Assembly (NCBI RefSeq): GCF_003402975.1
Contig: NZ_QURB01000002.1
Span: 165,061-229,060 of the forward strand
DNA: 64,000 bases
From: Brumimicrobium aurantiacum
Lineage (GTDB): Bacteria > Bacteroidota > Bacteroidia > Flavobacteriales_D > Crocinitomicaceae
Direction: 5' to 3'
Below, one piece after another: positions 3,755-24,730 of this stretch. Numbering within the stretch: position 1 is the first letter of the stretch; each line of letters starts with the position of its first letter. The notes beneath the pieces are model-generated. The model searched no databases, had not been told where the DNA came from, and worked only from the letters and a program-made list of their open reading frames with translations. The position numbers and the translations under genes are program-made.

Positions 3755-5236
3755 ATGAATAAAGAAAAATTAACCCTCTCCCAACTGGAACAATACCTTT
3801 CAAAAGTAGCCTGGATTCTTAAAGGACCTGTTGACGCTTCTGACTTTAAAGTTTATATTTTCCCCTTATTGTTTTTCAAAAGACTTTCTGATGTTTATAC
3901 AGAAGAATATCAAACCATCTTAGAAGAATCAGATGGAGATGCTGAATATGCTAGTTTACCTGAATTTCACCGTTTTGAAATACCTAAAGGTTGCCATTGG
4001 AATGATGTAAGAGAGCAAACAAACAATGTTGGAGCGGCTATTGAACTAGCGTTGAGAGGAATTGAACAAGCCAATCAAGGATTGTTGTATGGTATTTTTG
4101 GAGATGCACAGTGGAGTAACAAAAACAAATTATCTGATCGTTTATTGACAGATTTGGTTGAACACTTCTCTCAATATGAATTATCCAATAGTTTGGTTGA
4201 TCCTGATATGCTAGGAAACGCATACGAGTATTTGATTAAACACTTTGCAGATTTAACTAACAAAAAAGCAGGTGAATTTTATACACCAAGGTCTGTTGTT
4301 CATTTATTGGGTAAAATCTTAGACCCTCATGAAGGAGAGAGTATTTATGATCCTGCATGCGGAACTGGAGGAATGCTTTTAGAATGTGTTGATCACCTGA
4401 AAGAAAACAAGGAAGATTATAGAACGCTAAAACTATACGGACAGGAAAAGAATTTGACTTCTAGTTCAATTGCTCGAATGAATATGTTCTTGCACGGTAT
4501 TGAAGACTTTCAAATAACAAGAGGCGATACTTTACGTCAACCTGCATTTTTTGATGCGGATGGTTTACGAACCTTTGATTGTGTGATTGCAAATCCTCCT
4601 TTTTCTTTAAAAGAATGGGGAGCAGAAAACTGGGCCAATGATCCATACGGAAGAAATATAGCCGGTGTTCCGCCAAAAGGAAATGGGGACATGGCTTGGG
4701 TACAACACATGATAAAATCTATGAACAGTTCTGGAAGAATGACTGTTGTTTTGCCACATGGAGCCTTATTTAGAAAAGGTGCTGAAGGAAAAATCAGAAA
4801 AGCATTACTGGAACAAGATTTATTGGAAGCAGTTATTGGTTTAGGTTCAAACATTTTCTATGGTACGCAACTGGCTGCTTGTGTTATGGTTTTTAAGCAA
4901 GTAAAAACAGCTGATAAAAAAGGGAAAGTGCTCTTTATTGATGCATCTGACCAAATACGTGTAGGCCGAGCACAAAGTTATCTCGAAAAAAAACATGTTG
5001 ATCAGATTTACACATGGTTTAGTGACTATAAAGAAGTAGAAAATTATGTTTCTGTTGCCACACAGGAGGACCTTAAAGAAAATGATTACAACTTGAATAT
5101 TCCACTCTATGTGGAGAAAATTATTGAAGATAACCTTCCTTCTGTTGAGGAAGCACTGGCTGATTTAAAGGAAGCATGGAGCGAGAGCCAGAAAGCTGAA
5201 AAGAAGTTTAAAACGATATTAAAAGAATTTATTTAG
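3755..5236 (+). CDS. hsdM: Type I restriction-modification DNA methyltransferase, HsdM copy 1
   Basis: N6-adenine methyltransferase subunit that acts with HsdS. At 493 residues it has the HsdM N-terminal helical domain (about 10-130, with FPLLFFKRLSDVY), a GEFYTPR motif before the catalytic domain, the SAM-binding motif DPACGTGG at 199-206 and the catalytic motif NPPF at 280-283. All key residues are present, so it should be active. It is the first gene of the locus, and the next gene begins at the base after its stop. It is clearly related to, but well diverged from, the second HsdM at 5893, so the pair is not a recent duplication. Confidence 0.95.
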   Translation: MNKEKLTLSQLEQYLSKVAWILKGPVDASDFKVYIFPLLFFKRLSDVYTEEYQTILEESDGDAEYASLPEFHRFEIPKGCHWNDVREQTNNVGAAIELALRGIEQANQGLLYGIFGDAQWSNKNKLSDRLLTDLVEHFSQYELSNSLVDPDMLGNAYEYLIKHFADLTNKKAGEFYTPRSVVHLLGKILDPHEGESIYDPACGTGGMLLECVDHLKENKEDYRTLKLYGQEKNLTSSSIARMNMFLHGIEDFQITRGDTLRQPAFFDADGLRTFDCVIANPPFSLKEWGAENWANDPYGRNIAGVPPKGNGDMAWVQHMIKSMNSSGRMTVVLPHGALFRKGAEGKIRKALLEQDLLEAVIGLGSNIFYGTQLAACVMVFKQVKTADKKGKVLFIDASDQIRVGRAQSYLEKKHVDQIYTWFSDYKEVENYVSVATQEDLKENDYNLNIPLYVEKIIEDNLPSVEEALADLKEAWSESQKAEKKFKTILKEFI

Positions 5237-5896
5237 ATGACTAATCAAGAATTAATTGATAATATTCAAAAGTACTATTCTGAAGCTCGTGATTCAGAAT
5301 ATAATCATAGTCAAATTACACGTGGAAGAAAACATTCAATATCTTCTAAAGTTGAAGATTTGTTCGCATATTTTCTATTAAAACAATTAGATAAAGAAAA
5401 TACTGAATTATGGGTAGACTACCCTATGACCTATAAATCTAAAACGAAATTGACGAAGAAAAACAACCCTTCTTCAATCACAATTTATCCCGATATAGCA
5501 ATTGTTAGAAATAATATTGTAACTGATGTTATTGATATTAAAATGGATTTGGGGTGGAAAAGGGATTTTGCCCCTACTTTGAATAAAGCATTAGAGGCAG
5601 TGAATGAATTGCAAAGTGTTAAAGTTGGTACTTATAAGAAAGTTGATGAGTTCGGAAATAAGACTAAAACAGGCTTTCCTATTAAATTTTCAAGTAAGTT
5701 AAAGTGGCATATCGTAGTAATAAGTGACCAAAACATTTCTCATCATCAAATGATTAAAAATGAAAGTACCGCTAGTATTTTATGTGCTGAATCAACATTG
5801 AATTTATACATTTTTACGCGTAACCAACATCCAAACGGTGGAATTCCTGAAATTCAACATGAGGAAATTGAACGATTTATTAATAACTCAAAATGA
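5237..5896 (+). CDS. PD-(D/E)XK-like protein between the two hsdM genes
   Basis: I do not recognise a named family. The 219-residue protein contains YPDIAIVRNNIVTDVIDIK, in which D86 and the D100-x-K102 pair sit at the spacing of a PD-(D/E)XK nuclease core (D-x13-D-x-K). An earlier acidic residue in SSKVEDLF could complete the site. There is no signal peptide or membrane segment. It starts directly after the stop of hsdM copy 1 and its stop overlaps the ATG of hsdM copy 2 by four bases (ATGA), so it is translationally coupled to both methyltransferases. It may be an accessory nuclease or a structural relative without activity. Confidence 0.6.
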   Translation: MTNQELIDNIQKYYSEARDSEYNHSQITRGRKHSISSKVEDLFAYFLLKQLDKENTELWVDYPMTYKSKTKLTKKNNPSSITIYPDIAIVRNNIVTDVIDIKMDLGWKRDFAPTLNKALEAVNELQSVKVGTYKKVDEFGNKTKTGFPIKFSSKLKWHIVVISDQNISHHQMIKNESTASILCAESTLNLYIFTRNQHPNGGIPEIQHEEIERFINNSK

Positions 5897-7359
5897 ACCA
5901 AAAACAACTAGAAAAATACCTCTGGGGTGCAGCAACCCAATTACGCGGAACAATCGACGCAGGAGATTATAAGCAATATATATTTCCCTTATTGTTCTTT
6001 AAACGCATTTGTGATGTTTATGATGAAGAGTTTGAAACTGCACTAAAGGAAAGTGATGGTGATTTGGAATACGCTGCTTTCGAAGAACATCATCATTTTA
6101 TTATTCCTAAAGGAGCGCATTGGAATGATGTAAGAGAAACCACTGTAAATGTTGGTGATGCTTTGCAAAATGCCATGCGTGAAATTGAAAAAGCAAACCC
6201 AGATACTTTGTATGGAATATTCGGAGATGCTTCTTGGACAAACAAGAACAGACTCTCTGATGAAACGCTTACGAATTTAGTGGAGCATTACTCTCAACAC
6301 AAACTGAATTTAGCGAATGTTCCTGATGACCAATTGGGTAATGCTTATGAATACTTGATTAAAGAGTTTGCGGATGATAGTGGACATACTGCTGCTGAAT
6401 TCTACACCAACAGAACAGTTGTAAAGTTGATGACCATGATTATGGATCCTCAACCAGGTGAAAGTGTGTATGACCCGACTTGTGGTTCTGGAGGATTGTT
6501 GTTGAATTGCGCATTGCATCTTAAAGAAGAAGGAAAAGAATACCGAACTTTAAAACTATACGGACAAGAAATAAACCTCATTACTTCTGCCATTGCACGA
6601 ATGAACATGTTTATGCATGGAATTGAAGAATTTAGCATTGTGCGTGGAGATACCTTGTCACGACCAGCGTTCTTGGAAAATGATGAACTGAAAAAGTTCA
6701 ATGTAATATTGGCCAATCCACCTTACTCGATAAAAGCTTGGGACCAAAAAGCCTTTGTAAATGACCCTTATGGTAGGAATTTGTGGGGAGTTCCACCGCA
6801 AGGTTGTGCAGATTATGCCTTCCAACAGCATATCCAAAAGAGTCTAGATGATAAAAATGGACGTTCTATTTCTTTATGGCCACATGGTATACTATTTAGA
6901 GATTCTGAAAGTGACATGAGACGTAAAATGATTGAAGATGATTTGGTAGAATGTGTGATTGGTTTAGGTCCTAACTTGTTTTACAACTCTCCGATGGAAG
7001 CGTGTTTATTGATTACAAAAAACAGAAAAGAAGAAAATAAAAAAGGGAAGGTGTTATTTATAAATGCTGTGAATGAAGTAAAGCAAGATAAAACAATGTC
7101 TTTTTTAGAAGAGAAGCACATTAACAAAATTTTTGGAGCATATAGTAAATATAAAAATATAGATGATTTTGCCGCAGTTGTTAATATTAAAGATATTATT
7201 GCGAAAAAAGGTAATTTGAACATTAGTCTCTATGTTCAGCCAGAAAAAAAACAAGGAGTTGGAGCTCTGCCCTTTGAAGAGTCTTTTGAAAACTGGATTA
7301 ACTCAGGTGAAAAATTGAAATCATCAATGGATGAATTATTTAAAATATTGGAAAAATAA
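5893..7359 (+). CDS. hsdM: Type I restriction-modification DNA methyltransferase, HsdM copy 2
   Basis: Second complete HsdM, 488 residues. The motif order is the same as in copy 1: FPLLFFKRICDVYDEEF near the N-terminus, AAEFYTNRTVV before the catalytic domain, SAM motif DPTCGSGG at 194-201 and catalytic NPPY at 275-278. It differs from copy 1 by NPPY instead of NPPF and by many substitutions throughout, so the two are ancient paralogues. Its start overlaps the previous stop and its own stop overlaps the hsdS start by one base (TAATG). With one HsdS, the two proteins could form a heteromeric M1-M2-S enzyme in place of the usual M2S. Confidence 0.94.
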   Translation: MNQKQLEKYLWGAATQLRGTIDAGDYKQYIFPLLFFKRICDVYDEEFETALKESDGDLEYAAFEEHHHFIIPKGAHWNDVRETTVNVGDALQNAMREIEKANPDTLYGIFGDASWTNKNRLSDETLTNLVEHYSQHKLNLANVPDDQLGNAYEYLIKEFADDSGHTAAEFYTNRTVVKLMTMIMDPQPGESVYDPTCGSGGLLLNCALHLKEEGKEYRTLKLYGQEINLITSAIARMNMFMHGIEEFSIVRGDTLSRPAFLENDELKKFNVILANPPYSIKAWDQKAFVNDPYGRNLWGVPPQGCADYAFQQHIQKSLDDKNGRSISLWPHGILFRDSESDMRRKMIEDDLVECVIGLGPNLFYNSPMEACLLITKNRKEENKKGKVLFINAVNEVKQDKTMSFLEEKHINKIFGAYSKYKNIDDFAAVVNIKDIIAKKGNLNISLYVQPEKKQGVGALPFEESFENWINSGEKLKSSMDELFKILEK

Positions 7360-10817: not shown

Positions 10818-11345
10818 ATGATGAAGACACAAAACCAGCAGCTTAAACCACAGGATGTTTTACTGTTACTTAAAATTGTGAGTAACAACACTCCTTCCTG
10901 GAATCAAAAACCAATGGCAGAATCCTTAGGCTTGAGTCAGTCTGAGGTGAGTGAAGCTGTAGGTCGTTGCAAATACGCTGGACTTTTAGCTCCAAATGGT
11001 AAAATGGTAATGCGGCTGTCATTGCTGGAGTTTTTGCAATACGGATTAAGATATGTGTTTCCCATTAAACCTGGACCTGTAGTGCGTGGTGTACCTACTT
11101 CACATTCAGCTAAACCACTGAGTGAAGAAATTCAAAGTTCAGAAGCTTATGTATGGCCTTATGGTAAAGGAACGGTTCGTGGACAAAGCATATTGCCTTT
11201 ATACCCTTCGGTACCTGAGGCGGCTTTAAAAGATGAGAAATTATATGAATTGTTGGCCTTGGTTGATGCCTTACGAGTTGGAAGAGCAAGAGAGAGAGAG
11301 TTGGCCGTTTCAACCTTAAAAAAGAGATTAAACCTTGGAGAATAG
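10818..11345 (+). CDS. Winged-helix DNA-binding protein, AbiEi-like antitoxin/repressor candidate
   Basis: The 175-residue protein has a winged helix-turn-helix in its first 70 residues: LKPQDVLLLLKIV, then QKPMAESLGLSQSEVSEAVG as helix-turn-recognition helix, then YAGLLAPNGKMVMRLSLLEF as wing. The rest (HSAKPLSEEIQSSEAYVWPY and a helical C-terminus) is of unknown role. It overlaps the following nucleotidyltransferase gene by 11 bases. This matches the AbiE-type layout, where a winged-helix antitoxin binds inverted repeats in its own promoter. Two dyads lie upstream. It could instead be a plain transcription factor for the module. A second ATG at 10,821 is possible. Confidence 0.6.
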   Translation: MMKTQNQQLKPQDVLLLLKIVSNNTPSWNQKPMAESLGLSQSEVSEAVGRCKYAGLLAPNGKMVMRLSLLEFLQYGLRYVFPIKPGPVVRGVPTSHSAKPLSEEIQSSEAYVWPYGKGTVRGQSILPLYPSVPEAALKDEKLYELLALVDALRVGRARERELAVSTLKKRLNLGE

Positions 11346-12021
11346 AACTATCAACATAGCGGTTGTAGCAGAGGTTGCTGAAGCACTCCAACATATTAAA
11401 AGAAATATGGTATTTGTAGGTGGTGCAGTAGTAAGTTTATATACGGATGACCCTGCTGCGGATGAAATTCGGCCTACTCAAGATATTGATATGACCCTGA
11501 ATATTATTAATCTAAGCCACTGGGAGGAGGTGCAAACACAATTAGGTGCATTAGGTTTTTATCCCGATCCTTTCGGTCATGCCATTTGTAGTTACAAATA
11601 CAAAGATATTCCAGTAGATATAATGGCGACCGAAGATGGTCCGTTGGGGCCTGCCAACAGTTGGTACAAAATAGGTTTTGAAAACTTATGGTCCGCAAAA
11701 GCAAAAGCACAGGACATTAAAATATTATCCGCACCTTGTTATTTGGCTACCAAATTTGAAGCATTCAACAACAGAGGTATAGATTATCGAACCAGTCACG
11801 ATATAGAAGACATAATTTATGTACTAGACAATAGGATAAACATCGTCGAAGAAATTTCCAAGGATGATAATCGCATAACTAATTTTATAAAGGAGCAATT
11901 ACAAAATATCATTGACAAAGGTTTACTAACAGAGGTTTTAATGGCTCATATTCATCCTTTATTATTAGGTGAAAGGATGCCTTTTGTAGAAGAAAAAATC
12001 ACCCAAATACTTAAAAACTAA
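11335..12021 (+). CDS. Nucleotidyltransferase, AbiEii-like toxin candidate
   Basis: The 228-residue protein carries a DNA-polymerase-beta-type nucleotidyltransferase signature. VFVGGAVVSLY supplies the GG motif, followed after 18 residues by the metal-binding pair in QDIDMTL; DIMA further on may be the third acidic site. The start is a TTG at 11,335, overlapping the upstream gene by 11 bases. The first in-frame ATG (11,407) would begin just ahead of the GG motif and remove the preceding helix, so TTG is preferred. The gene order, winged helix then nucleotidyltransferase, is that of AbiE-like type IV toxin-antitoxin systems. Toxicity is not demonstrated by sequence. Confidence 0.6.
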   Translation: MENRTINIAVVAEVAEALQHIKRNMVFVGGAVVSLYTDDPAADEIRPTQDIDMTLNIINLSHWEEVQTQLGALGFYPDPFGHAICSYKYKDIPVDIMATEDGPLGPANSWYKIGFENLWSAKAKAQDIKILSAPCYLATKFEAFNNRGIDYRTSHDIEDIIYVLDNRINIVEEISKDDNRITNFIKEQLQNIIDKGLLTEVLMAHIHPLLLGERMPFVEEKITQILKN

Positions 12022-15119: not shown

Positions 15120-15590
15120 TCATATCCCTAATTTGGATTTAAGATCTAAAGTAATATCTTTAGTAAGTACATGATTAAAAAGCTTTGAATTTGTACTTAT
15201 AACCCATCCATTCTGATGTTTATTCTGTTTGCTGATTTCCTTAGCTGCATTTGAGGGGATTTCTATGGCTTTGATAATTTCACCTTCATTATTATACATT
15301 AAAACGGTAAGGAAATCGAAATCCCACGAACGAATTATCCCTAGTGATGTGCTTTTAATTTTTTCTCCAACTTTTCTCCCTTTTACTTGATAACTCTTTG
15401 AATTCGAGATAATATCAATACCTTTACTAGATACGTTTAGTTTTTCTCCACTATAATATTGATGTGAATAGAATTCAGTCATTTCTGCAACAATGTTTTT
15501 ACTTCGCATTAGTTCATTAGCTATTGCATTTGCTGAAATGTTAAATTGTTTCCAGTGTTTTTGAATTTTATCGAATTTTTCTCTAGCCAT
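15120..15590 (-). CDS. Restriction-nuclease-like protein with a D...QxK core
   Basis: A 156-residue protein. SSKGIDIISNSKSYQVKGRK places an aspartate (D59) nine residues before Q68-V-K70, the arrangement of a PD-(D/E)XK fold with glutamine in place of the acidic residue. Earlier E36 or E39 could complete the site. The segment FDFLTVLMYNNEGEIIKAIE resembles the second half of small restriction-like proteins that read a substrate in the form KGYD...YQIKGR; this resemblance is from memory. Last of four minus-strand genes; 106 bases separate it from the gene upstream, so it may have its own promoter. Confidence 0.5.
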   Translation of the reverse strand: MAREKFDKIQKHWKQFNISANAIANELMRSKNIVAEMTEFYSHQYYSGEKLNVSSKGIDIISNSKSYQVKGRKVGEKIKSTSLGIIRSWDFDFLTVLMYNNEGEIIKAIEIPSNAAKEISKQNKHQNGWVISTNSKLFNHVLTKDITLDLKSKLGI

Positions 15591-15696: not shown

Positions 15697-16374
15697 TTAC
15701 TTTTGTTCTTCAATAAAATCAAACATATTTATTTTAGATAAATAATTCCTCCATAAATCTACACTATAATATTGACTACAATGCTTAATTGAAATTATAG
15801 GTATTTCTTTGTTATTAAGTGTGATGCTAAAGTCCCTAGAAACCTGGTTTTTGGAAACCCTGTGGTATTTTAATTTATTTCTTCTGCTATATATTTCAAA
15901 TTTATCTAAAACAACACTTCCAATAAATAAGATACGATCAGGTTGTAAAACATCTAGAAGTTTAAAGAAGCTATCCCATCCTGCATAAATTTCCTTAGTA
16001 GAAGGTCTGGATTTATTAGAGTGCATCGGAACTTGAATAAAGTTATAAAAAGCAACGTTTTCCCATAATTCTGAAGTATCAGCTTTATCACTTCCAAAAA
16101 CAGTTTTATGAAAGTTCGGAAACAAGCGTGCTTTTCTTTTGTCAGGATATTTTAGATATTCTTTTTTTATTCCAATATCATTAATTACGACCCTTGTGAA
16201 ATTAACATTCTGATGTTTGTCGATTGAGGATTGCTCTTCTGGATTATAATAATGACTTTCTCCAACAATCAGAAGCTTGTTTTTCGAGTGGATATAATTT
16301 TTTCCAATCCAAGGTAGCCATGTTAAAGTTTTGTTTTCTACTAATCGATTCAAGTTTATTTCTGTTTTTTCCAT
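15697..16374 (-). CDS. Uracil-DNA-glycosylase-superfamily-like protein
   Basis: The 225-residue protein shows a pattern like UDG-fold proteins: LLIVGESHYYNPEE near 34-47 (matching the GE motif of the active-site loop), LWENVAFYNFIQVPM (103-117), PDRILFIGS (145-153) as a central strand and IPIISIKHCSQYY in the place where UDGs carry the HPS-type loop. It lacks a clear 4Fe-4S cysteine set. It may excise or recognise unusual bases, or be a catalytically dead relative. It lies 55 bases downstream of the RecA-like gene and 106 bases upstream of the nuclease-like gene, on the same strand. Confidence 0.5.
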   Translation of the reverse strand: MEKTEINLNRLVENKTLTWLPWIGKNYIHSKNKLLIVGESHYYNPEEQSSIDKHQNVNFTRVVINDIGIKKEYLKYPDKRKARLFPNFHKTVFGSDKADTSELWENVAFYNFIQVPMHSNKSRPSTKEIYAGWDSFFKLLDVLQPDRILFIGSVVLDKFEIYSRRNKLKYHRVSKNQVSRDFSITLNNKEIPIISIKHCSQYYSVDLWRNYLSKINMFDFIEEQK

Positions 16375-16429: not shown

Positions 16430-17383
16430 TTAATGTGCATATTTCAGCTCTTTCGTTTTCAAAAACACAAAATTCTTTACAGTCCCAATTCTCTCATCCA
16501 CCTCAAACCCCGTATACCTCTCATTAAACCTAAAATACAGATTTTTCAAATACCCACCATCGTCATCCATCACATACAAGTCAATACGATTTTTAGTCAA
16601 GTTATTTGCTCCGTCTCTATCAATTCCATAATATTCTAACCTGTGCATAAACCAAATATGATCAGCCAAATCTGCTAAGTTATATTCGAGTTGGATGTCT
16701 GGAATCTGTGGTAATTGAAAAGGGTTTTCCTGGGTACGTTTAGCCGATTTTATTTTCTTAAGAATCATCCCACAACAATCCAATCGTCGAAGAAGTAGTT
16801 TTAATCTGAGAATAAAGTCATACTTTTCATCTGTTGTCAGCTTGACTTTTAAATTTCTAAATAAATTATTTTCATTATCTATGATTATCAATTTGATTCC
16901 ATTTTGAGTGACATAATCTTCGATAAGTTCCAAGAATTCATTTTGTTCAAACTGCTTTTCTTTTTCAATGAAGAGCTTTTTGCTTTTAAAAGAGTTCAGT
17001 ATTTCTGAAGCTTGATCAGTTGTTTCTTTATTCCAAGGCAGCTGCTCAAGTTGGTGCGATTGGATATTTCCAGCAATGGAAAGTAAACGTTTGCTTAGTT
17101 TTGATGGAGATTCAAATTGTGTTAAATACAAAACACCTGAATGTTCTGCGACTTCCAAAGCAAGCTGACCGATGAATGTTTGCTGTCCCATTGCAGCAGC
17201 TCCACCTAAAATGTAAAGTTCTCCTAATTTTAATCCATTGAGTTGATCGTCGATGTTTGAAAATCCTGTATTTAATGAAAGGAGTAAGGGATTCTCAGCT
17301 TTTTCTATTACCTTCTTCACTTGATGCTTCAAGCTAGATTCTCTTTTATCAGTGATCTCATTTTGTTCTTCCTTACTTTTCAT
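16430..17383 (-). CDS. DnaB/RecA-like ATPase domain protein with degenerate Walker A
   Basis: The 317-residue protein resembles the C-terminal RecA fold of DnaB-type helicases: TGFSNIDDQLNGLKLGELYI (39-58) matches the entry to that domain and KLIIIDNENNL holds the Walker B aspartate (D169). The P-loop reads GGAAAMGQQTF (60-70) where DnaB has the form MGKTAF. The invariant lysine is replaced by glutamine, so ATP hydrolysis is doubtful. It has no DnaB N-terminal domain, only a charged 35-residue lead. Its start lies inside the end of the AAA+/M41 gene (11-base overlap), so the two are made together and likely act together. Confidence 0.6.
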   Translation of the reverse strand: MKSKEEQNEITDKRESSLKHQVKKVIEKAENPLLLSLNTGFSNIDDQLNGLKLGELYILGGAAAMGQQTFIGQLALEVAEHSGVLYLTQFESPSKLSKRLLSIAGNIQSHQLEQLPWNKETTDQASEILNSFKSKKLFIEKEKQFEQNEFLELIEDYVTQNGIKLIIIDNENNLFRNLKVKLTTDEKYDFILRLKLLLRRLDCCGMILKKIKSAKRTQENPFQLPQIPDIQLEYNLADLADHIWFMHRLEYYGIDRDGANNLTKNRIDLYVMDDDGGYLKNLYFRFNERYTGFEVDERIGTVKNFVFLKTKELKYAH

Positions 17384-19469
17384 CTCTCCACGATTTTAAA
17401 GTATCAGTTATTACATTGTCCTTCTGTTGACTTTTATTAAGAACAATGGCTCTGTGTATTGCTATATCTTTCATGCTTTCTAATTCCTTTAAAGCCTTTA
17501 CAATTGCATCACGGTAATGTGTTGACTCGTTCTTAAAATCGATCTTCTTCGCGCCGTGTTTATGGTACAATTCAATAAACTCTTGTTGTTCAAATTTTGA
17601 TTTGTTTTGAAGTATTTGTGCCAATTCGAGTAACATTCTGCGTTCTTTTTTTAGCGTTTCTTCGGCTAGAATTTGTGCCGCATCTATTACATTAGAAATC
17701 TCTTTTTCCACTTCTTCAATTTGATGAAAGCTTGTTGAATTTTCGGTTTTATTGCTTGCATAATGGTAAAGTTTTTCGCCCATTCCGGCGTTTTTAAAAG
17801 CGTTGTCAATTAAGCTATACGCTTTTTGAATATCTGAACTTGCACCCAATGTAATATACTCCTTTCCAAAAATGTACTTTTCTGCCATTATTCCAGCGAG
17901 CGCTACTGCAACTTTGTTTAATAAACTCTTTTTTGAAGTAAAGTCTTCATTGGAACGTGAAAACACAAAGCCTTCTTTTCCATCTGTGGCTGTTGCGGTG
18001 ATGATTTTTGGTGCTTCGTTCAATAAATGAGCAATCACTACTGCGTGACCAGCTTCATGTACTGCTGTTATTGCCTGGTTCTCATTGTTTCTTGGTTTTC
18101 TTAATTCTCCTAATTTTGAACGCAATGGAATACTCAAAGCATTCACTTGATTGCTTTGGGAAAGAAAAGTACAGAGCAGTTTGTTGTCCTTTTCAGATAA
18201 TGAAATTTCATGTATTTCCTTTTCTTCCTGTAATACAGCTTGAAATATAAGTGCCGTTTGCGATTTTATGAGTTGATAAATTGTGGTGAGAACAGGTCGA
18301 GCACCTTGGGTTGGATAAACGCCTTCATCATAAATCTTATCGATTAAAGTTGAGTCATAAGTCCAGTGAATGGAATAATGTTTTTCCAGCATTTTGAAGT
18401 ACTCGCCAAGCTTCATCGTAATAAGTTGGCGATATGCTTTTTTGTTTAATGCAGGATAAATAATGTGATTATTTCCTAATCGTGCAATTTGTTCATCACG
18501 AAAACGCTCCTGCAAGGCTGATTTTATGTCGGGAACTGTTATCTTTTTGCTGACTTCATAAAATTCATCGGCAGAAATGTCTGTATTTAGGTTATTGTTG
18601 ATTTTATAAGCTTCGTCCAAGTTTCCAACCACGAAAATGAGGGATTTACTGAATTTCCGTTCCACAGGTTGACGCGCAATGAGTAAGGCTTCCTCCAAAA
18701 AACGAATGGTTTCTTTGCCATTCAATGTTTTTAAATGCAATACCAACTCTTCAACCATGTCAAGATTATAGCGTTGCGGCACATATTTTACCAATTCGTA
18801 ATGTAAACTTTGTGGAATAGCTAGGTATTCTTCGGGTTCCGTGTCGATTAACATTGCTGTTTTCATTTCTTCCAAAAACAAACTTTTCTCTTCGACAACT
18901 ATTCCGTTTTCGATAAGCATTCCTTTCGAAATCAACATTTTTAGACTTCTGATGTGCTTTAGAATTTCAGTAACAATTTGTTTCCAGAAATTTTCAATAA
19001 TTTTCCCTGAATCCAGCAAGTCCCACACCAATCGATGAGCGCCATTTTCCACTTCTTTTTTACCTGATAAATTCTTTTCAATGGTTCGTGCATGTTGAAA
19101 TTCATCTAAAATGATGATCAAAGGCTCGTCATTTAAAACCGCGGCAATTTGTTGCACCGATTGATTAAAAGAATGCGGTCCATATTTCGCACCAAAATCA
19201 ATCCGAAATGTTTTGTCTTTTATCTCTAATAACTCAGCGATTCTTAAAAGCAAAGAAGTTTTTCCTACGCCAGTAAGTCCCCATAAATTAACCACATTGG
19301 GTTGGGTCTGTATTTCCGCCAAAGTGTACCATGAGCGTATGTTGTCAACGACTTCATCAATTGCTTTGTCGATACCTGTAAATTCAGTTTTAAGTTGATT
19401 TCTAATCTTTTCTAAGCGATTAATTTTCTCATTAAATACTTCTTTTAACTCCATTAAATTGTTATTCAT
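17373..19469 (-). CDS. Clp-type AAA+ ATPase fused to an FtsH-type M41 metallopeptidase
   Basis: A 698-residue predicted ATP-dependent protease. The AAA+ part has Walker A GLTGVGKT (64-71), Walker B IIILDEF (D122, E123), a sensor-1-like VVGNLDEA (N283), an arginine-finger region ERFRDEQIAR (R330) and sensor 2 TQGARPV (388-393). These last features are those of the Clp/HslU clade, not of FtsH. The C-terminal part is an M41 zinc peptidase: HEAGH at 471-475 and the third ligand D546 in GASSDIQKA. It has no membrane segment, unlike FtsH, so it should be cytosolic. About 150 residues of mainly helical sequence separate Walker B from sensor 1. It leads a minus-strand cassette with the RecA-like gene. 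Substrate and trigger are unknown. Confidence 0.75.
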   Translation of the reverse strand: MNNNLMELKEVFNEKINRLEKIRNQLKTEFTGIDKAIDEVVDNIRSWYTLAEIQTQPNVVNLWGLTGVGKTSLLLRIAELLEIKDKTFRIDFGAKYGPHSFNQSVQQIAAVLNDEPLIIILDEFQHARTIEKNLSGKKEVENGAHRLVWDLLDSGKIIENFWKQIVTEILKHIRSLKMLISKGMLIENGIVVEEKSLFLEEMKTAMLIDTEPEEYLAIPQSLHYELVKYVPQRYNLDMVEELVLHLKTLNGKETIRFLEEALLIARQPVERKFSKSLIFVVGNLDEAYKINNNLNTDISADEFYEVSKKITVPDIKSALQERFRDEQIARLGNNHIIYPALNKKAYRQLITMKLGEYFKMLEKHYSIHWTYDSTLIDKIYDEGVYPTQGARPVLTTIYQLIKSQTALIFQAVLQEEKEIHEISLSEKDNKLLCTFLSQSNQVNALSIPLRSKLGELRKPRNNENQAITAVHEAGHAVVIAHLLNEAPKIITATATDGKEGFVFSRSNEDFTSKKSLLNKVAVALAGIMAEKYIFGKEYITLGASSDIQKAYSLIDNAFKNAGMGEKLYHYASNKTENSTSFHQIEEVEKEISNVIDAAQILAEETLKKERRMLLELAQILQNKSKFEQQEFIELYHKHGAKKIDFKNESTHYRDAIVKALKELESMKDIAIHRAIVLNKSQQKDNVITDTLKSWRDEK

Positions 19470-19669
19470 CTTCGTTTTTTATTTTGATTAAAACAAAGGT
19501 CAGGGCAGATGCCGCCAAATGATGTCGGAGGGTGGTTTTATACTTTTAATGCGTATCCGATACTTTACCAGTAAATTTTGAATTAAACTTCAATCCTCCA
19601 TAAAACAGAGATTTATAAAATATGGTATATTATTAATTTCAATATATGACAATATTTAGGATTCATGAC

Positions 19670-19780
19670 GCAAGCAATCCGTGATTATCCGAATTCACCT
19701 GAGGTGAAAATCCGTGATTATCCGCGTTGCTTGCAGTTCTGCTGCGTAAGCCCAAAGCATCCGTGTCATCCGTGTTCCAT
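19670..19780. repeat. Cluster of ATCCGTGATTATCCG repeats
   Basis: Repeated AATCCGTGATTATCCG units are framed by GCAAGCAA (19,670-19,677) and TTGCTTGC (19,727-19,734), with a 15-base palindrome at 19,694-19,708 in the middle. Two shorter ATCCGTG(T) copies follow to about 19,777. A single related copy lies near 1730-1750, so this is a dispersed intergenic family of this genome. Confidence 0.6.
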
Positions 19781-19909
19781 TACAGCGTAAACCATTTGCG
19801 AGGTAAAGGAGCTTAAATGATTTCACTACTGGCTAAGATTCCGATAGGCATTATACTTTTAAATAAAGGTGAATTAAGAGTAATTGTATTGAAATTCCTC
19901 CTTCATGCT

Positions 19910-20028
19910 CTCCAAAGGGGGAGGCGCTGTCAAGTAGCTTTCTGTTTAAACAAGCGTATTACTTCTTTAAAAAGTTTAAAAATGTTTTATTAAAAAGAGA
20001 ATATTCGTGATTACTTCCCCCTTTGGAG
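19910..20028. repeat. Long-range inverted repeat with CTCCAAAGGGGGA arms
   Basis: The 13-bp arms at 19,910-19,922 and 20,016-20,028 are perfect complements, separated by 93 bases. The right arm is followed by GGGGACAAAGGGGAGG. This is another palindromic intergenic element, similar in style to the one at 1810-1907. Confidence 0.55.
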
Positions 20029-20078
20029 GGGGACAAAGGGGAGGACTAGAAAAATAAAGATTCCTCCCACTAGAAATG

Positions 20079-20107
20079 TTGAAGAAATACCAATATTCTT
20101 ATATTCG
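20079..20107 (+). promoter_or_regulatory. Promoter of the WYL regulator
   Basis: TTG at 20,079-20,081 and TATATTCG at 20,100-20,107, separated by 18 bases, resemble the Bacteroidota -33/-7 pair. The ATG follows 12 bases after the -7 box. Confidence 0.45.
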
Positions 20108-20119
20108 CTTAAAAACTCA

Positions 20120-21025
20120 ATGTCAGCACAAGCCATCATTCGCCGTTACAAACGCATCATCGATCTCATAGAAACTGGGCAATTTCCTTCTATGGATGAA
20201 ATTATGGAATATATCGAGCGTATAGGATTAAAAGCCTCTAAACGAACTGTTGAACGAGATTTTGAAGCCATTCGTAACGAGTTTAACGTGGAGATTGAAT
20301 ACAATTCTATTAATCGCGGTTACTTTATCAACAGAGAGAAGAGTTTAGCTATTGATAGTTTTCTGAGGCTATTGGAATTGGTTGAAACAGCAAATGTCTT
20401 TCAAGAGAGTTTGAAGGAAAGTAAAGAGACACTGAATTATATCGACTTTGAGTATGAAGGAAATGTTTCAGGTATTGAGTTTCTACAAGATATTCTAATG
20501 ACAATTCGTAACTGTCAACGCATTCGATTTCAACACGATAATTATCATTCAGGAAAATCAAAAAAATATCAAATGAAACCTTATCTTATCAAAGAATATC
20601 AAGGACGATGGTATGTTGTGGGAGTGGTTTCAGGAATGGAAGAAGTAAGAACTTTTGGTTTAGATCGAATTTCGGAATTGGAAATACTCACCAAAACATT
20701 TGTTCCAGACCAATCACTTAATTTAAAAGAACGGTTTCATGATGTTGTGGGACTAACATATTCTTTAAGTGAACTCACTAGAATTGTAATTGCAGTAAAA
20801 TCAACTCAAATTCCTTATTTAAAATCTCTACCCTTGCATCATTCACAGAAAATCCTTGAAGAAAAAGATGGCGAAACCTTGGTTGAATATTATTTAAAAC
20901 CCAATTATGAATTTAGTCAGCTCCTTTTTATGCACATGGATAGATTGCGAGTTTTGGAGCCGGATTGGCTTGTTGAAGAAATGAATGTAATGTTGGAGAA
21001 GATGCGGGCGATGTATGCCAGGTGA
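20120..21025 (+). CDS. WYL-domain transcriptional regulator
   Basis: A 301-residue regulator. The first 60 residues form a helix-turn-helix (AIIRRYKRIIDLIETGQ, then ASKRTVERDFEAIRNEF as recognition region). A WYL ligand-sensing domain lies at about 125-200 with YLIKEYQGRWYVVG and TFGLDRIS, followed by a WCX-like C-terminal extension. WYL regulators often control phage-defence operons and bind nucleic-acid-type ligands. It stands between the AAA+/M41 cassette and McrBC, each transcribed on the opposite strand, so either could be its target. The direct target cannot be seen. Confidence 0.85.
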   Translation: MSAQAIIRRYKRIIDLIETGQFPSMDEIMEYIERIGLKASKRTVERDFEAIRNEFNVEIEYNSINRGYFINREKSLAIDSFLRLLELVETANVFQESLKESKETLNYIDFEYEGNVSGIEFLQDILMTIRNCQRIRFQHDNYHSGKSKKYQMKPYLIKEYQGRWYVVGVVSGMEEVRTFGLDRISELEILTKTFVPDQSLNLKERFHDVVGLTYSLSELTRIVIAVKSTQIPYLKSLPLHHSQKILEEKDGETLVEYYLKPNYEFSQLLFMHMDRLRVLEPDWLVEEMNVMLEKMRAMYAR

Positions 21026-21110: not shown

Positions 21111-22355
21111 TCACCCCACAAACCCATCCAAAACCTTTACCCCCAAATCGGCACACAATTCACCATCCTCAACAACCTTCACAAATTTCAAATATCCTTT
21201 ATGCGAGAAATCATCTTTAGCAAAAGGTACTAAGTCTGTAGTTTTAAAAACATCATCTTTGTTGTTTCGGGGATCTCCGGGATAAAGCAGCATCACATTT
21301 TCAGCATTCCAAAAACGAGCATAAGTGTAAACTTGACGCAAATCGTCAACACTGGCTGAGAATCCTGGTCTTTTCCACTTGGTATCGATAACGTATTTTC
21401 GTTTGGTCGTTTTGTGTTCAAGTACAATGTCTGGTTGTAGACTATTGCCTTTCCAAAAACTTTTAGAGCGTTGCGGAGAAACAGTGTAATCTTGAAAATT
21501 AGAACTTGGTTTTAGGGTTTCTTTCCTTAGTTGCACAAATACATATTCTTCCCACAATTCATTCATGTCAAAGAGTAGGGCAATCATATTTTCTCGTCCT
21601 TTATTGATGTCGGGAGAGTAATTTAAGATGATCAAGCGGGCCAATTCAAAAGCTCTTTTGTAAGGCATTGTTTTACGGTTAAAAACCACGCTTTCCAATA
21701 ATTTGGGCGTCACTTTAATGTGTTCAACCTCAGGAAAAGACAAAGTCATGCGTCTCCACAAATCATTTAAACGTGAACCACGAGAAAATTGTCCCACAAT
21801 ATTCAAAGCAACAGCCAGAATTTGATGTAACTGATGATTGGTATCATACACTTGGTGTGTGGTGTAAAAACGTTCCTTATGAATGTGATTGTGACGGATG
21901 TTTTCGGCGAACTCTAATTTTCCTTTCAATGCTTTTACATTACCAGATTCTCGTCGGTATTGTTTTACTAAACCTCGGTGAATCAAGTATTCAATTTCTC
22001 TCAGAAAATATTCAAAATAGACTTCTAGCAAATTAAGGTTTTGCTTTTTCACTTGTGCTTCACCAGCTCTTTCGGCACTTAATCTTCCACACGCTTTTAG
22101 CATTTGCAACAAAACACCTCTCCATTCACTATCACTTTCATCTTTATCTGCCTTAGGATGAATTTGCAGCAATAATTCTCCGACTTGTAAAACACCCACA
22201 AACTGCTTGAACTTTATTCCTTTCGGGATAATGTCAAAATACGCGCTTTCATGAACGGTGTTCAGCTTTATCAGCGCATCTAAATGCGATTGATTGAAGC
22301 CTTCTTCACCAATGAATAAACGCCCATGTTCAAATCTGTTGATGGCTTTATTCAC
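21111..22355 (-). CDS. mcrC: McrC, nuclease subunit of the McrBC modification-dependent restriction system
   Basis: Partner of McrB that stimulates its GTPase and cuts DNA. At 414 residues it has the McrC N-terminal beta region (GIKFKQFVGVLQVGELLLQI), a helical middle, and a C-terminal PD-(D/E)XK core: LQPDIVLEHKTTKRKYVIDT followed by KWKRP, so D...D-x-K. All three catalytic positions are present. Its start overlaps the end of mcrB by four bases. It is complete. Confidence 0.92.
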   Translation of the reverse strand: MNKAINRFEHGRLFIGEEGFNQSHLDALIKLNTVHESAYFDIIPKGIKFKQFVGVLQVGELLLQIHPKADKDESDSEWRGVLLQMLKACGRLSAERAGEAQVKKQNLNLLEVYFEYFLREIEYLIHRGLVKQYRRESGNVKALKGKLEFAENIRHNHIHKERFYTTHQVYDTNHQLHQILAVALNIVGQFSRGSRLNDLWRRMTLSFPEVEHIKVTPKLLESVVFNRKTMPYKRAFELARLIILNYSPDINKGRENMIALLFDMNELWEEYVFVQLRKETLKPSSNFQDYTVSPQRSKSFWKGNSLQPDIVLEHKTTKRKYVIDTKWKRPGFSASVDDLRQVYTYARFWNAENVMLLYPGDPRNNKDDVFKTTDLVPFAKDDFSHKGYLKFVKVVEDGELCADLGVKVLDGFVG

Positions 22356-24730
22356 TCTTCCTTATTTTCTTCCTTAATTCCAAGTAAACCTTTCAATGCG
22401 GTGATAATATCAAAATCAGGTTGATCAAAATCCTTAAAAACATAGCGTTTTCTTTCTTCGAAGTAATTATCATTCGAAACAGCAAAAGTTACTTTATTTA
22501 GTTTTTCCATAAAGAAATAGGAGCCAATCACCATTTCCATTTTACTGTAATCTCCAAAGAAATATTCTTGAAGTAAAGGGATGACTTTATCCTTAAAAAC
22601 ATTTTTCAAGTCTTCTTTGCTTTTGACATTCAGGAAGTAAGAGTGGCCAATTGTATGGTCACGATCTACAAGTACTTCAATACGTTCATTTATTGTAGTT
22701 AAGAGTTGTGCTAGATTTATCCCTTCAATTTCAATATCCGTCAAAAGTTCAGGATTGGGCATCATTTCTTGGAAGGAGAATCTTCTACGTAATGCGGTAT
22801 CGAGTGCTTCAACTGAACGGTCGGCGGTGTTCATTGTGCCGTATATATCGAGATTCGAAGGTACACTAAACAATTCTTTAGAATAGGGGAGTTTAATACT
22901 CAATTCATTTTTTGCGCCAGTTCTTTTATCAATTTCAATGAGGGTAATGAGCTCACCAAAAATTGCAGAAACATTTCCACGATTAATTTCATCTATGAAG
23001 ATAGCATATCTATTATTTGAATCATTTTTCGCCTTTAAACACAGTTTTTTAAAGACACCATCTTCAATTTTATAACCGAGATCTATTGATTCTTCAGCTT
23101 CGTTTTCAGGTAAAATCGGTTTTATTCCCTCAATAAAGTCTTCGTAAGCAAAAGATTGATGAAAGGTAACAAAATCGTAGTTTTTGATAATTTTATCAGG
23201 ATTAGGATTGTAATTATCGACAGAATCTTTGATGTCATATAATTCTGGAGCCAATTCTTTCACTTCATCTTCTAATATCTCCCAAGTTGAATCCTCTCTT
23301 TTATTAAAAATAAGTGGTTGTTGGCGATTGGCTACTTTTACAAATTCGCATTCATTTATGGTATGACTTTGTAGCTGTCCCCACAATGTTGGTCTGATTG
23401 TTTTTGAATTAGAAAGACTGGCTTTTTTCTCTATCCATTTATTGTTGAAGATTTCTGTAACTTTAGAATCACCAATTTCTAACAAAGCGATTCCAATTAC
23501 CTGCCACCATGAGGAATTACTCACAACATTTTCAAAGTGTTGCTCCTTCGAAATAGAAGTTTCCTTTACTGTATAATTATCAAATAACTGATCTTTTAGA
23601 AAGTATGTTTTCCCAGTTCCAGGAGGTCCAAAAAGGATTTGGTTAATTGACTTTTTTGGATTTTGAATTGTTTCTAGTTCTTTTTTCTCACCTTTCATTA
23701 AAGCCATCAGTCGCTGATAGAAAAATTCATAATTATCACCGTCTGATTTATAGTTAGTGATATTGGTTAATGTTTTCAAAACCAGACTGTGACTCGTTTT
23801 CCAATTTCCATTTACTTTCCAATCTACTGTTCTGCTACTTTTATATTCTTCTTTGGAATTATTATGGTAATAATCTGAGGTTACAATACCATAGCCTAAA
23901 AGTTCATGTTTTCCTTTCTTTACGATTACAATGTCTCCAATTTTTATCTCTTTGGAAAATTCGAAATTTGCTGCAACGTTATTCTTTTTGCTTCCTTCAC
24001 CGCCATAATTTTCCTGTAAAGCAGAATAAATATCATCTTTGGTATCGTATTGAGATAAATCACCTAATTCGTCCCAACCTATGGCCATTATTCCTTCTTC
24101 ATAAAATGAATTCCAATGTTCTGCACTCCTTCCTGGAGAGTATATCCAATAATTTATTGGCTTTCTATCCGATTTTAGCCTTAACTCTAAATTATCTTGA
24201 AGTTTTTTAAAGCGTACTTCATTAGGAATTATGTTTTCTATTCTAGAATTTGAAGCAGTTTCTGTAATGATAGAATAATTTTTATCTAACCATTTGTACA
24301 GTAGCGAAGGGTCATCTATAGTGAATTCTCCAATATTTAACCAGGCTCTTTCGCCTTTCTTATCCCATTTTATCCCTGCAAATTTTGCAGCTAGTTCTTT
24401 ATAAAATGCTATTATTTCAAGGTCTTCTATTCCTGGAAATACTATTTCAAAATGTGCTTTGAAACCATCATGTTGGGTTGGACTTATAACGAGACCTCCA
24501 CTTTTTGTGGAGTTAGCACCTCCACTTTTATCTAATAGGCCTACAAAACAATATTTTTCTGTCCCCTGAAACACCAAACCATGTGCAAACTTTCCACCAG
24601 GGTATTTTTTGTCGTTGGTACTTGCTCTTTGTCTGACCAGAAATTTAAAATTTTTATTATGCTTTTCTCTATATGTAAGTAAGAGTTCGTGTATTTTTTG
24701 ATGAAAATGCATTATACTATTTTTATTCAT
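22352..24730 (-). CDS. mcrB: McrB, AAA+ GTPase subunit with modified-base-reader N-terminus
   Basis: GTP-driven motor of an McrBC system, 792 residues. Walker A GPPGTGKT at 368-375, Walker B FIDEINRGN at 578-586 and the McrB signature MNTADRSVEALDTALRRRF at 633-651 are intact. The N-terminal half differs from the E. coli DNA-binding domain. Residues 1-150 are of unknown fold, and about 190-290 (NYWIYSPGRSAEHW, EEGIMAIGWDELGDL, GDIVIVKKG, LLGYGIVTSDYY) read like an EVE/PUA-like domain, a fold that flips out modified bases. The target modification is therefore probably a cytosine derivative, but which one is unknown. Confidence 0.9.
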   Translation of the reverse strand: MNKNSIMHFHQKIHELLLTYREKHNKNFKFLVRQRASTNDKKYPGGKFAHGLVFQGTEKYCFVGLLDKSGGANSTKSGGLVISPTQHDGFKAHFEIVFPGIEDLEIIAFYKELAAKFAGIKWDKKGERAWLNIGEFTIDDPSLLYKWLDKNYSIITETASNSRIENIIPNEVRFKKLQDNLELRLKSDRKPINYWIYSPGRSAEHWNSFYEEGIMAIGWDELGDLSQYDTKDDIYSALQENYGGEGSKKNNVAANFEFSKEIKIGDIVIVKKGKHELLGYGIVTSDYYHNNSKEEYKSSRTVDWKVNGNWKTSHSLVLKTLTNITNYKSDGDNYEFFYQRLMALMKGEKKELETIQNPKKSINQILFGPPGTGKTYFLKDQLFDNYTVKETSISKEQHFENVVSNSSWWQVIGIALLEIGDSKVTEIFNNKWIEKKASLSNSKTIRPTLWGQLQSHTINECEFVKVANRQQPLIFNKREDSTWEILEDEVKELAPELYDIKDSVDNYNPNPDKIIKNYDFVTFHQSFAYEDFIEGIKPILPENEAEESIDLGYKIEDGVFKKLCLKAKNDSNNRYAIFIDEINRGNVSAIFGELITLIEIDKRTGAKNELSIKLPYSKELFSVPSNLDIYGTMNTADRSVEALDTALRRRFSFQEMMPNPELLTDIEIEGINLAQLLTTINERIEVLVDRDHTIGHSYFLNVKSKEDLKNVFKDKVIPLLQEYFFGDYSKMEMVIGSYFFMEKLNKVTFAVSNDNYFEERKRYVFKDFDQPDFDIITALKGLLGIKEENKEE

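Follow-up and report, generated by a model that had tools for sequence, protein, structure and literature searches.

A WYL-linked protease of Bacteroidota that joins a Clp-type AAA+ motor to an M41 peptidase and has relatives on viral contigs

Results

A Clp-type motor and an M41 peptidase in a single chain

The gene at the center of this study lies in a 64,000-nucleotide stretch of the Brumimicrobium aurantiacum genome (contig NZ_QURB01000002.1, positions 165,061 to 229,060; the whole stretch is called the window below) and encodes a fusion of an AAA+ motor with a zinc peptidase of family M41. Its open reading frame (ORF) occupies the minus strand at a place where the plus strand is crowded with stops, and it is flanked by a divergently oriented gene for a WYL/WCX transcription regulator on one side and by a gene for a DnaB-like ATPase on the other (Table 1).

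Table 1. Features of the protease locus (positions refer to the window).
Feature	Position	Strand	Evidence
Clp-type AAA+/M41 fused protease, 698 aa	17373..19469	-	ORF; Pfam M41 and ClpB_D2-small; AlphaFold2 model
AAA+ module, Clp/Hsp100 D2 type, residues 1-452	18114..19469	-	separate AlphaFold2 model, fold matches
Walker A GLTGVGKT, residues 64-71	19257..19280	-	G64, G67, G69, K70 in 58/58 covering members
Walker B, ends D122-E123	19101..19118	-	D in 59/59; E in 58/59 (remaining one D)
Long insert, between the conserved W149..L[DS].G155 helix and sensor 1 N283	18624..19004	-	59 aligned members
R330 in FRDEQIAR (motif at 323), Clp-type arginine-finger candidate	18480..18482	-	59/59
R391, sensor 2 in GARPV (motif at 389)	18297..18299	-	59/59
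Peptidase M41 domain, residues 462-633	17571..18086	-	Pfam PF01434, E 5e-21
HEAGH zinc site, residues 471-475	18045..18059	-	H471, E472, H475 in 59/59
D546, third zinc ligand by homology to FtsH	17832..17834	-	59/59
Divergent intergenic region, expected regulator target	19470..20119	.	sequence between protease and regulator
WYL/WCX transcription regulator, divergent partner of protease	20120..21025	+	Pfam WYL and WCX above cut-offs
DnaB_C/KaiC-like ATPase	16430..17383	-	Pfam DnaB_C, E 4e-24
225-aa "GESHY" protein, possibly UDG-superfamily-like	15697..16374	-	26-29% identity to neighbors in L027, L109
156-aa methyl-directed restriction-enzyme-like protein	15120..15590	-	PADLOC mREase_II, E 5e-20

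The architecture of a Clp motor and an M41 peptidase in one soluble chain, as proposed in an initial annotation made from the sequence alone, is well supported. Pfam models for Peptidase_M41 and ClpB_D2-small (PF10431; residues 341-406, 28.9 bits against a cut-off of 21.9) both score above their cut-offs, while no Lon peptidase family appears in the Pfam scan at E ≤ 1. AlphaFold2, run with an input alignment of 30 sequences, gave a whole-protein model with a mean predicted local distance difference test score (pLDDT) of 81.8 and a predicted template modeling score (pTM) of 0.71, and a model of residues 1-452 alone (pLDDT 84.1, pTM 0.77) that shows the fold of Clp motors. The mean Kyte-Doolittle hydropathy over 19 residues peaks at 1.27 in the window protease and at 1.87 in the whole family versus 2.21-3.21 in three FtsH controls, and because these maxima lie below those of FtsH, no transmembrane segment is indicated, as had also been proposed. 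None of the models in Pfam, NCBIfam, PADLOC, or PHROGs covers the two halves of the protein together, so that the suggestion that it belongs to no named family holds for these libraries. Members of the family run from 625 to 778 residues, which rules out an artefact of gene prediction.

Eight residues (D122, N283, R330, R391, H471, E472, H475, and D546) are invariant in all 59 aligned members. These 59 rows, on which both the residue counts and the tree are based, leave out 11 of the 39 viral loci described below as identical or near-identical (L043-L045, L054, L059, L061, L070, L073, L075, L076, and L078). The arginine-finger motif, sensor 2, HEAGH, and D546, the four elements on which the initial annotation had leaned, are all in place, and the conservation of the motifs across 59 divergent members excludes that they arose by chance.

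The motor belongs to the Clp/Hsp100 clade

By sequence profiles, motifs, and AlphaFold models alike, residues ~1-450 fall into the Clp/Hsp100 D2 clade. In the tests run, the ATPase half led to Clp-type proteins and not to the FtsH AAA family, and the peptidase half to M41. A profile of 14 bacterial members (A1) was compared with the PDB; by best stretch per sequence, and among the 60 of 61 sequences shown, chains of FtsH type aligned within 455-666 (AFG3L2 at 426-635), and chains of Hsp104, ClpB, ClpC, ClpE, and ClpA at 14-103 or within 253-443. The NCBIfam model of FtsH, TIGR01241, which includes the AAA domain, covers only residues 461-630 of the protease (67.7 bits against a cut-off of 600), and those of ClpV1 and ClpK reach over approximately residues 273-424. 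Five FtsH controls (one from the same genome, two from plasmid records, and two from phage records) matched the family profile strongly in the M41 half and with independent E-values of 0.007 to 16 in AAA stretches. All five carry an RPGRFD-type motif that is present in none of the 59 members, in agreement with the profile matches.

Structural comparison gave the same picture. With the AAA half alone, the 50 matches listed by the structure aligner are Skd3, ClpC, ClpB, ClpA, Hsp104, PTEX, and ClpX chains (Z 21.4-24.5 among them), headed by Skd3 (7tts_C; Z 24.5, root-mean-square deviation (rmsd) 3.1, 302 residues aligned), and the 50 rows listed by Foldseek are likewise all of Clp type; FtsH does not appear among the 50 matches listed by the aligner, an absence that is no proof in itself. 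With the whole model, FtsH chains come out on top in Foldseek by E-value because both domains align, and in the structure aligner most Clp rows rank above both an FtsH model (Z 21.9; rmsd 7.2, 403 residues aligned) and an FtsHi chain (Z 21.6; rmsd 6.2, 378 residues aligned). A fold search of BFVD returned partial matches only (best template modeling score by query length 0.41), including giant-virus FtsH and phage Clp proteins. The span of TIGR01241, the partners of the profile in the PDB, the FtsH controls, and the missing RPGRFD-type motif rule out that the protease is an FtsH paralogue.

A divergent WYL/WCX regulator accompanies most bacterial members

The regulator encoded next to the protease matched 8 sequences in the PDB, which are named as WYL-domain, DeoR-family, transcriptional-regulator-like, or PafBC proteins. 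A WYL homologue lies within 6 kb of the protease in 23 of 31 bacterial loci (22 loci counted by script plus the window locus), and in 14 of them the distance is 130 bp at most. By a rough estimate based on 3.0 Mb with 2-6 WYL genes, random placement would put a WYL gene near a given locus with a probability of only ~0.01-0.03, so this linkage is far beyond chance. Two of the eight bacterial loci without a WYL homologue (L029 and L113) lie on contigs shorter than 5 kb, and no such gene turns up within the sequence stretch examined at any of the 39 viral loci. Protein distances of proteases and their WYL partners are correlated (Mantel r 0.64 for 23 pairs, reached in 0 of 5000 permutations).

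At the locus of a 96% identical ortholog (L027), positions 5632-5802 hold a 57-residue N-terminal WYL fragment (79% identity) with a stop inside, and relatives of the PDC-M21 pair described below sit between WYL and protease; this fragment is a trace of island reshuffling. As a precedent for the regulator, a study of CapW describes a WYL repressor of the cyclic oligonucleotide-based antiphage signaling system (CBASS) that is related to BrxR of bacteriophage exclusion (BREX) systems (PMC9122588).

The family is sporadic in Bacteroidota and recurs on viral contigs

Members of the family were found in 31 distinct genomes of Bacteroidota. Among genomes of the host family, 8 of 200 (including the source of the window) carry long-frame members; at the E-value limit the count is 10 of 200, the two extra matches being ClpB-type proteins. 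The corresponding counts are 11/399 for the order, 19/375 for the class, and 5/395 for the phylum, and the four samples overlap. One member (genome G211) is split over two contigs (L036 and L037), and the partial locus L036 represents this genome. A single-sequence scan of genome contigs found the 96% ortholog, which belongs to Brumimicrobium oceani, one M41-only match, and nothing else. In a sample of Pseudomonadota, scored with three candidates per genome and without a positive control, we found members in 0 of 378 genomes. Five members of a single genus (g247; L118-L122) are of unusual amino-acid make-up, keep the WYL gene in 4 of 5 cases, and by eye are surrounded by housekeeping genes.

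A profile-guided scan of IMG/VR added 39 loci (28 distinct ones), which lie on contigs 15-413 kb long. Out of 10 scanned neighbors of the protease at viral loci, 9 match a PHROG, and among these are clamp loader, major head protein, exonuclease, and thymidylate synthase; the clamp loader gene lies directly upstream of the protease in L049, and the major head protein gene is ~2.3 kb away from it in L058. We take many of these carrier contigs to be real large phages, while individual ones may be host contamination. Searching 50,697 GenBank phage records by tblastn with four members (window, L042, L066, and L049) gave no match covering 80% of the query, the best-covering places being of M41 type except for two Enterococcus records that match residues 10-160 of L042. 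Plasmid records likewise contained nothing covering 80% of two members (window and L108).

In a midpoint-rooted tree with support from the Shimodaira-Hasegawa-like approximate likelihood ratio test (SH-aLRT), 24 bacterial rows, of which 21 are WYL-linked and 3 are not, group without any viral row (SH-aLRT 96). Four bacterial members without WYL (L033, L110, L111, and L114) join the viral rows L042, L046, L048, and L077 (SH-aLRT 96), L041 falls inside the main viral group, and L040 forms a long branch of its own. The WYL-linked L039 joins viral L062 and L064 (SH-aLRT 93), contrary to a clean split. Overall, group labels change 9 times along the tree compared to a mean of 24.4 after shuffling. 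Since the tree is midpoint-rooted, it does not settle the direction of transfer between phages and hosts. The window copy itself is no recent prophage gene, given its restriction-gene neighborhood and its place in the 24-row group without viral rows.

Neighboring genes and the defense island of the window

The initial annotation placed the protease in a defense island, and for the window this is accurate: it contains Type I restriction-modification genes, a McrBC-like pair, a PDC-M21 pair, and the mREase-like protein of Table 1. Two genes for HsdM-like methyltransferases stand in near tandem (3755-5236 and 5893-7359) upstream of the HsdR gene, with an ORF of 219 residues between them. The candidate PDC-M21A/B pair (AbiEii-like; 10818-12021) lies beside these Type I restriction genes, and the McrBC-like pair occupies 21111-24730, with a region of its McrB (~194-307) that matches PADLOC PDC-S02 models.

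The neighborhoods of the other bacterial loci were clustered within 6 kb. Recurring neighbors include DUF2779-like proteins (5 loci, with Pfam confirming two), PDDEXK_4-like nucleases in 4 loci (to which Pfam adds L035 and L039), and Type I methyltransferases in 3 loci. GmrSD and GIY-YIG proteins are also encoded near members. In total, at least 15 of the 31 bacterial loci (window, L027, L028, L030, L031, L034, L035, L036, L038, L039, L107, L109, L111, L116, and L117) have neighbors of defense, nuclease, or uracil-DNA glycosylase (UDG) type, and this number is a floor because only selected neighbors were scanned against the libraries. On the question, raised in the initial annotation, of whether homologues recur beside defense genes, they are not confined to housekeeping contexts; this needs to be qualified in that many of them lie on viral contigs.

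The DnaB-like ATPase gene overlaps the protease gene by 11 bp, its start with the protease stop. Its product has lost the Walker A lysine (GGAAAMGQQT), which the DnaB-like neighbors in L028, L031, and L107 retain. Such a partner occurs within 6 kb in 5 of 31 loci (these three, L027, and the window), and one neighbor in L039 has a sub-threshold DnaB_C match only. In a genome without the protease, a DnaB/KaiC-like ATPase gene with a degenerate Walker A motif (GRPAMGTTM; L084:7754-8575) adjoins a WYL gene, so WYL and an inactive DnaB-like protein may form a unit of their own.

The GESHY protein has no Pfam UDG match of its own, and a PDB search with its profile (alignment A4) came back empty. The UDG profile does match a neighbor in L109 (25.5 bits, cut-off 24.3) and, below the cut-off, one in L034 (22.4 bits), with weaker matches in L027 and L109. 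Brig3, an enzyme of the UDG superfamily, is reported to act as a phage-defense glycosylase (PMC13160076), and because of this example the UDG-like neighbors are suggestive of defense.

Discussion

A proposed role in phage-host conflict

Our results lead us to lean slightly toward a WYL-controlled, cytosolic, ATP-dependent protease that takes part in phage-host conflict and is carried on both sides. A single motor ring of Clp/Hsp100 D2 type, very probably a hexamer, would feed polypeptides to an M41 ring formed by the same chain, in a layout like that of FtsH or Lon but with another motor and no membrane anchor. In Bacteroidota the protease would mostly be paired, as one of two genes in a module, with a WYL/WCX regulator resembling CapW and BrxR. 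This regulator most likely keeps the module repressed until the cell is infected or suffers DNA stress, by analogy to the silencing of CBASS by CapW. Once released, the protease may degrade a protein of the phage or one encoded by the host or a partner gene, and would act alongside variable neighbors of nuclease type or UDG-like ones. Phages would possess this enzyme but not the regulator, presumably to take over the host or to counter its defenses. The domain make-up, the conserved active sites, the missing membrane segments and canonical pore motif, the WYL linkage, and the occurrence on viral contigs come directly out of the computations. We infer the hexamer, active proteolysis, repression by WYL, and the role in phage-host conflict, and for an anti-phage role in particular the scales appear evenly balanced. 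Defense is still something that we infer, because approximately half of the bacterial loci (with selected neighbors scanned) have no recognized defense-type neighbor besides WYL and because many relatives lie on viral contigs.

Beyond this point, several observations weigh against the role that we favor. The canonical pore motif [FYW][VILM]G is present between Walker A and B in none of the 59 members, and it is found in two ClpB D2 rings and in all five FtsH controls; substrate threading is therefore not assured. Two ClpB D1 control rings also lack the motif, and a diverged pore loop is possible because 48 of the 59 members keep some aromatic residue in this stretch, though in no fixed column (at most 14/59 in any). 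The stretch from G155 to N283 spans 99-193 residues across the 59 members, while ClpB has about 25 residues at the equivalent position. The missing motif and this insert are the most mechanistically surprising feature of the family: The substrate is either gripped by some other loop or threaded in a different way.

On the side of regulation, no inverted repeat of at least 10 nt with arms within 60 bases, and thus no palindromic operator, was found in 19400-20160, the correlation of WYL and protease distances may partly reflect shared species history, and WYL relatives (38-65% identity) occur in genomes without the protease (G027, G130, G185, G054, and G115). On the side of defense, no PADLOC model (2023 version of PADLOC-DB) matches the protease, the DnaB-like protein, or the GESHY protein at E ≤ 0.01, and L110, L114, and L118-L122 resemble ordinary gene neighborhoods by eye. 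On the side of phages, the terminase profile phrog_2 matches 16 of 29 tested viral contigs and is moderate evidence for phage identity because 11 of 14 control genomes match it too.

Some of these points feed alternative explanations. The 28 distinct viral members, together with the bacterial rows that the tree places among or beside viral ones (L033, L110, L111, L114, L041, and L039), could mean that the gene is of phage origin, used by large phages to degrade host or defense proteins, and that bacterial copies were captured and serve superinfection exclusion or nothing yet. We nevertheless consider this explanation improbable, though the least so of the three discussed here: The main bacterial group of 24 rows contains no viral row, is diverse, and keeps its active sites and mostly its regulator; midpoint rooting leaves the direction undecided; and phage structural genes are not evident, by eye only, in the listed bacterial neighborhoods.

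Somewhat less probable still is that the protease serves stress responses or quality control in Bacteroidota, under WYL control and without any special link to phages. Clp and FtsH proteases are generally proteostatic, and L032 shares the housekeeping surroundings (by eye) of L110, L114, and L118-L122, but the family is very sporadic in the host family, order, and class (8/200, 11/399, and 19/375 genomes), restriction and nuclease neighbors recur, and members are present on viral contigs. That the protease processes or remodels the WYL regulator or a DnaB-like or UDG-like partner and not infection targets would fit the tight WYL coupling (14/23 within 130 bp), the 11-bp overlap with the DnaB-like gene, and the restricted substrates that absence of the pore motif could entail, yet is the most doubtful explanation, with a DnaB-like partner near only 5 of 31 members and no WYL partner at the viral loci examined.

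Returning to a protease of phage-host conflict, a bolder version would posit a separate class of stand-alone cytosolic Clp-motor and M41 proteases that evolved in this conflict. Large phages would carry such proteases, as would their hosts under WYL control, and substrates would be gripped without the canonical pore motif, perhaps via a diverged loop or the insert; we offer this version tentatively and rate it as rather unlikely in its entirety. Energy-dependent proteolysis in bacteria is usually taught as a short list of ClpXP/AP/CP, HslUV, Lon, FtsH, and the Pup-proteasome. A conserved combination of Clp motor and FtsH peptidase whose active sites are intact, common to phages and WYL-linked modules, would add one machine to this list and, if true, would suggest that proteolysis serves as a weapon between phages and their hosts. 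The family also makes it testable whether a motor of the Clp clade can work without the canonical pore-loop motif.

Comparison with known systems

We found no published description of a Clp motor combined with M41 among the matches listed in a search of full-text literature, which leaves most subscription papers outside, and a word search of a BREX survey gave no mention of M41, FtsH, or Clp (PMC12839542). For an Ochrobactrum jumbo phage, an AAA/M41 match by HHpred inside a replication-like protein is reported (PMC7139368).

With FtsH and the m-AAA and i-AAA proteases, the family shares an M41 peptidase with HExxH and a third Asp ligand that is C-terminal to an AAA+ motor. In contrast, FtsH has its own membrane anchors and a classical AAA motor with an RPGRFD-type motif and an FVG-type pore loop, none of which was found in the family. 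The FtsH of Pseudomonas phage 30-3, a Wroclawvirus and kin of jumbo phage MIJ3, is of this classical type (RPKRFD, FVG, and a hydrophobic segment). A phage-borne M41 protease, FtsH, is reported for MIJ3 itself (PMC6892783), and according to a review FtsH proteases are anchored in the membrane and contain AAA and M41 domains (PMC9020784). As a separate observation, loci of a rhizobial plasmid and of a metagenome-assembled genome (L016:3640-5570 and L004:7725-10528) encode a classical AAA ATPase and an M41 peptidase as two overlapping frames, which is a further arrangement of M41.

The WYL + WCX architecture of the regulator and its place beside a presumed defense gene are as in CapW and BrxR, but the partner here is neither CBASS nor BREX. 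The motor fold, FRxEQIxR, sensor-2 GxRP, and the D2-small domain are shared with the D2 rings of ClpB, ClpA, and ClpC, with ClpX, and with Skd3. Unlike these Clp/Hsp100 proteins, whose peptidase, where there is one, is a separate ClpP-type subunit, the family has its M41 peptidase in the same ORF and chain, one AAA ring, no GYVG-type motif, and 99-193 residues before sensor 1. As a soluble single-chain AAA+ protease, Lon has a working layout like that of the new family, but its peptidase is of the serine type and not an M41 zinc peptidase. We file the protease as a variant of the AAA+ proteases that is a member of neither FtsH nor Clp.

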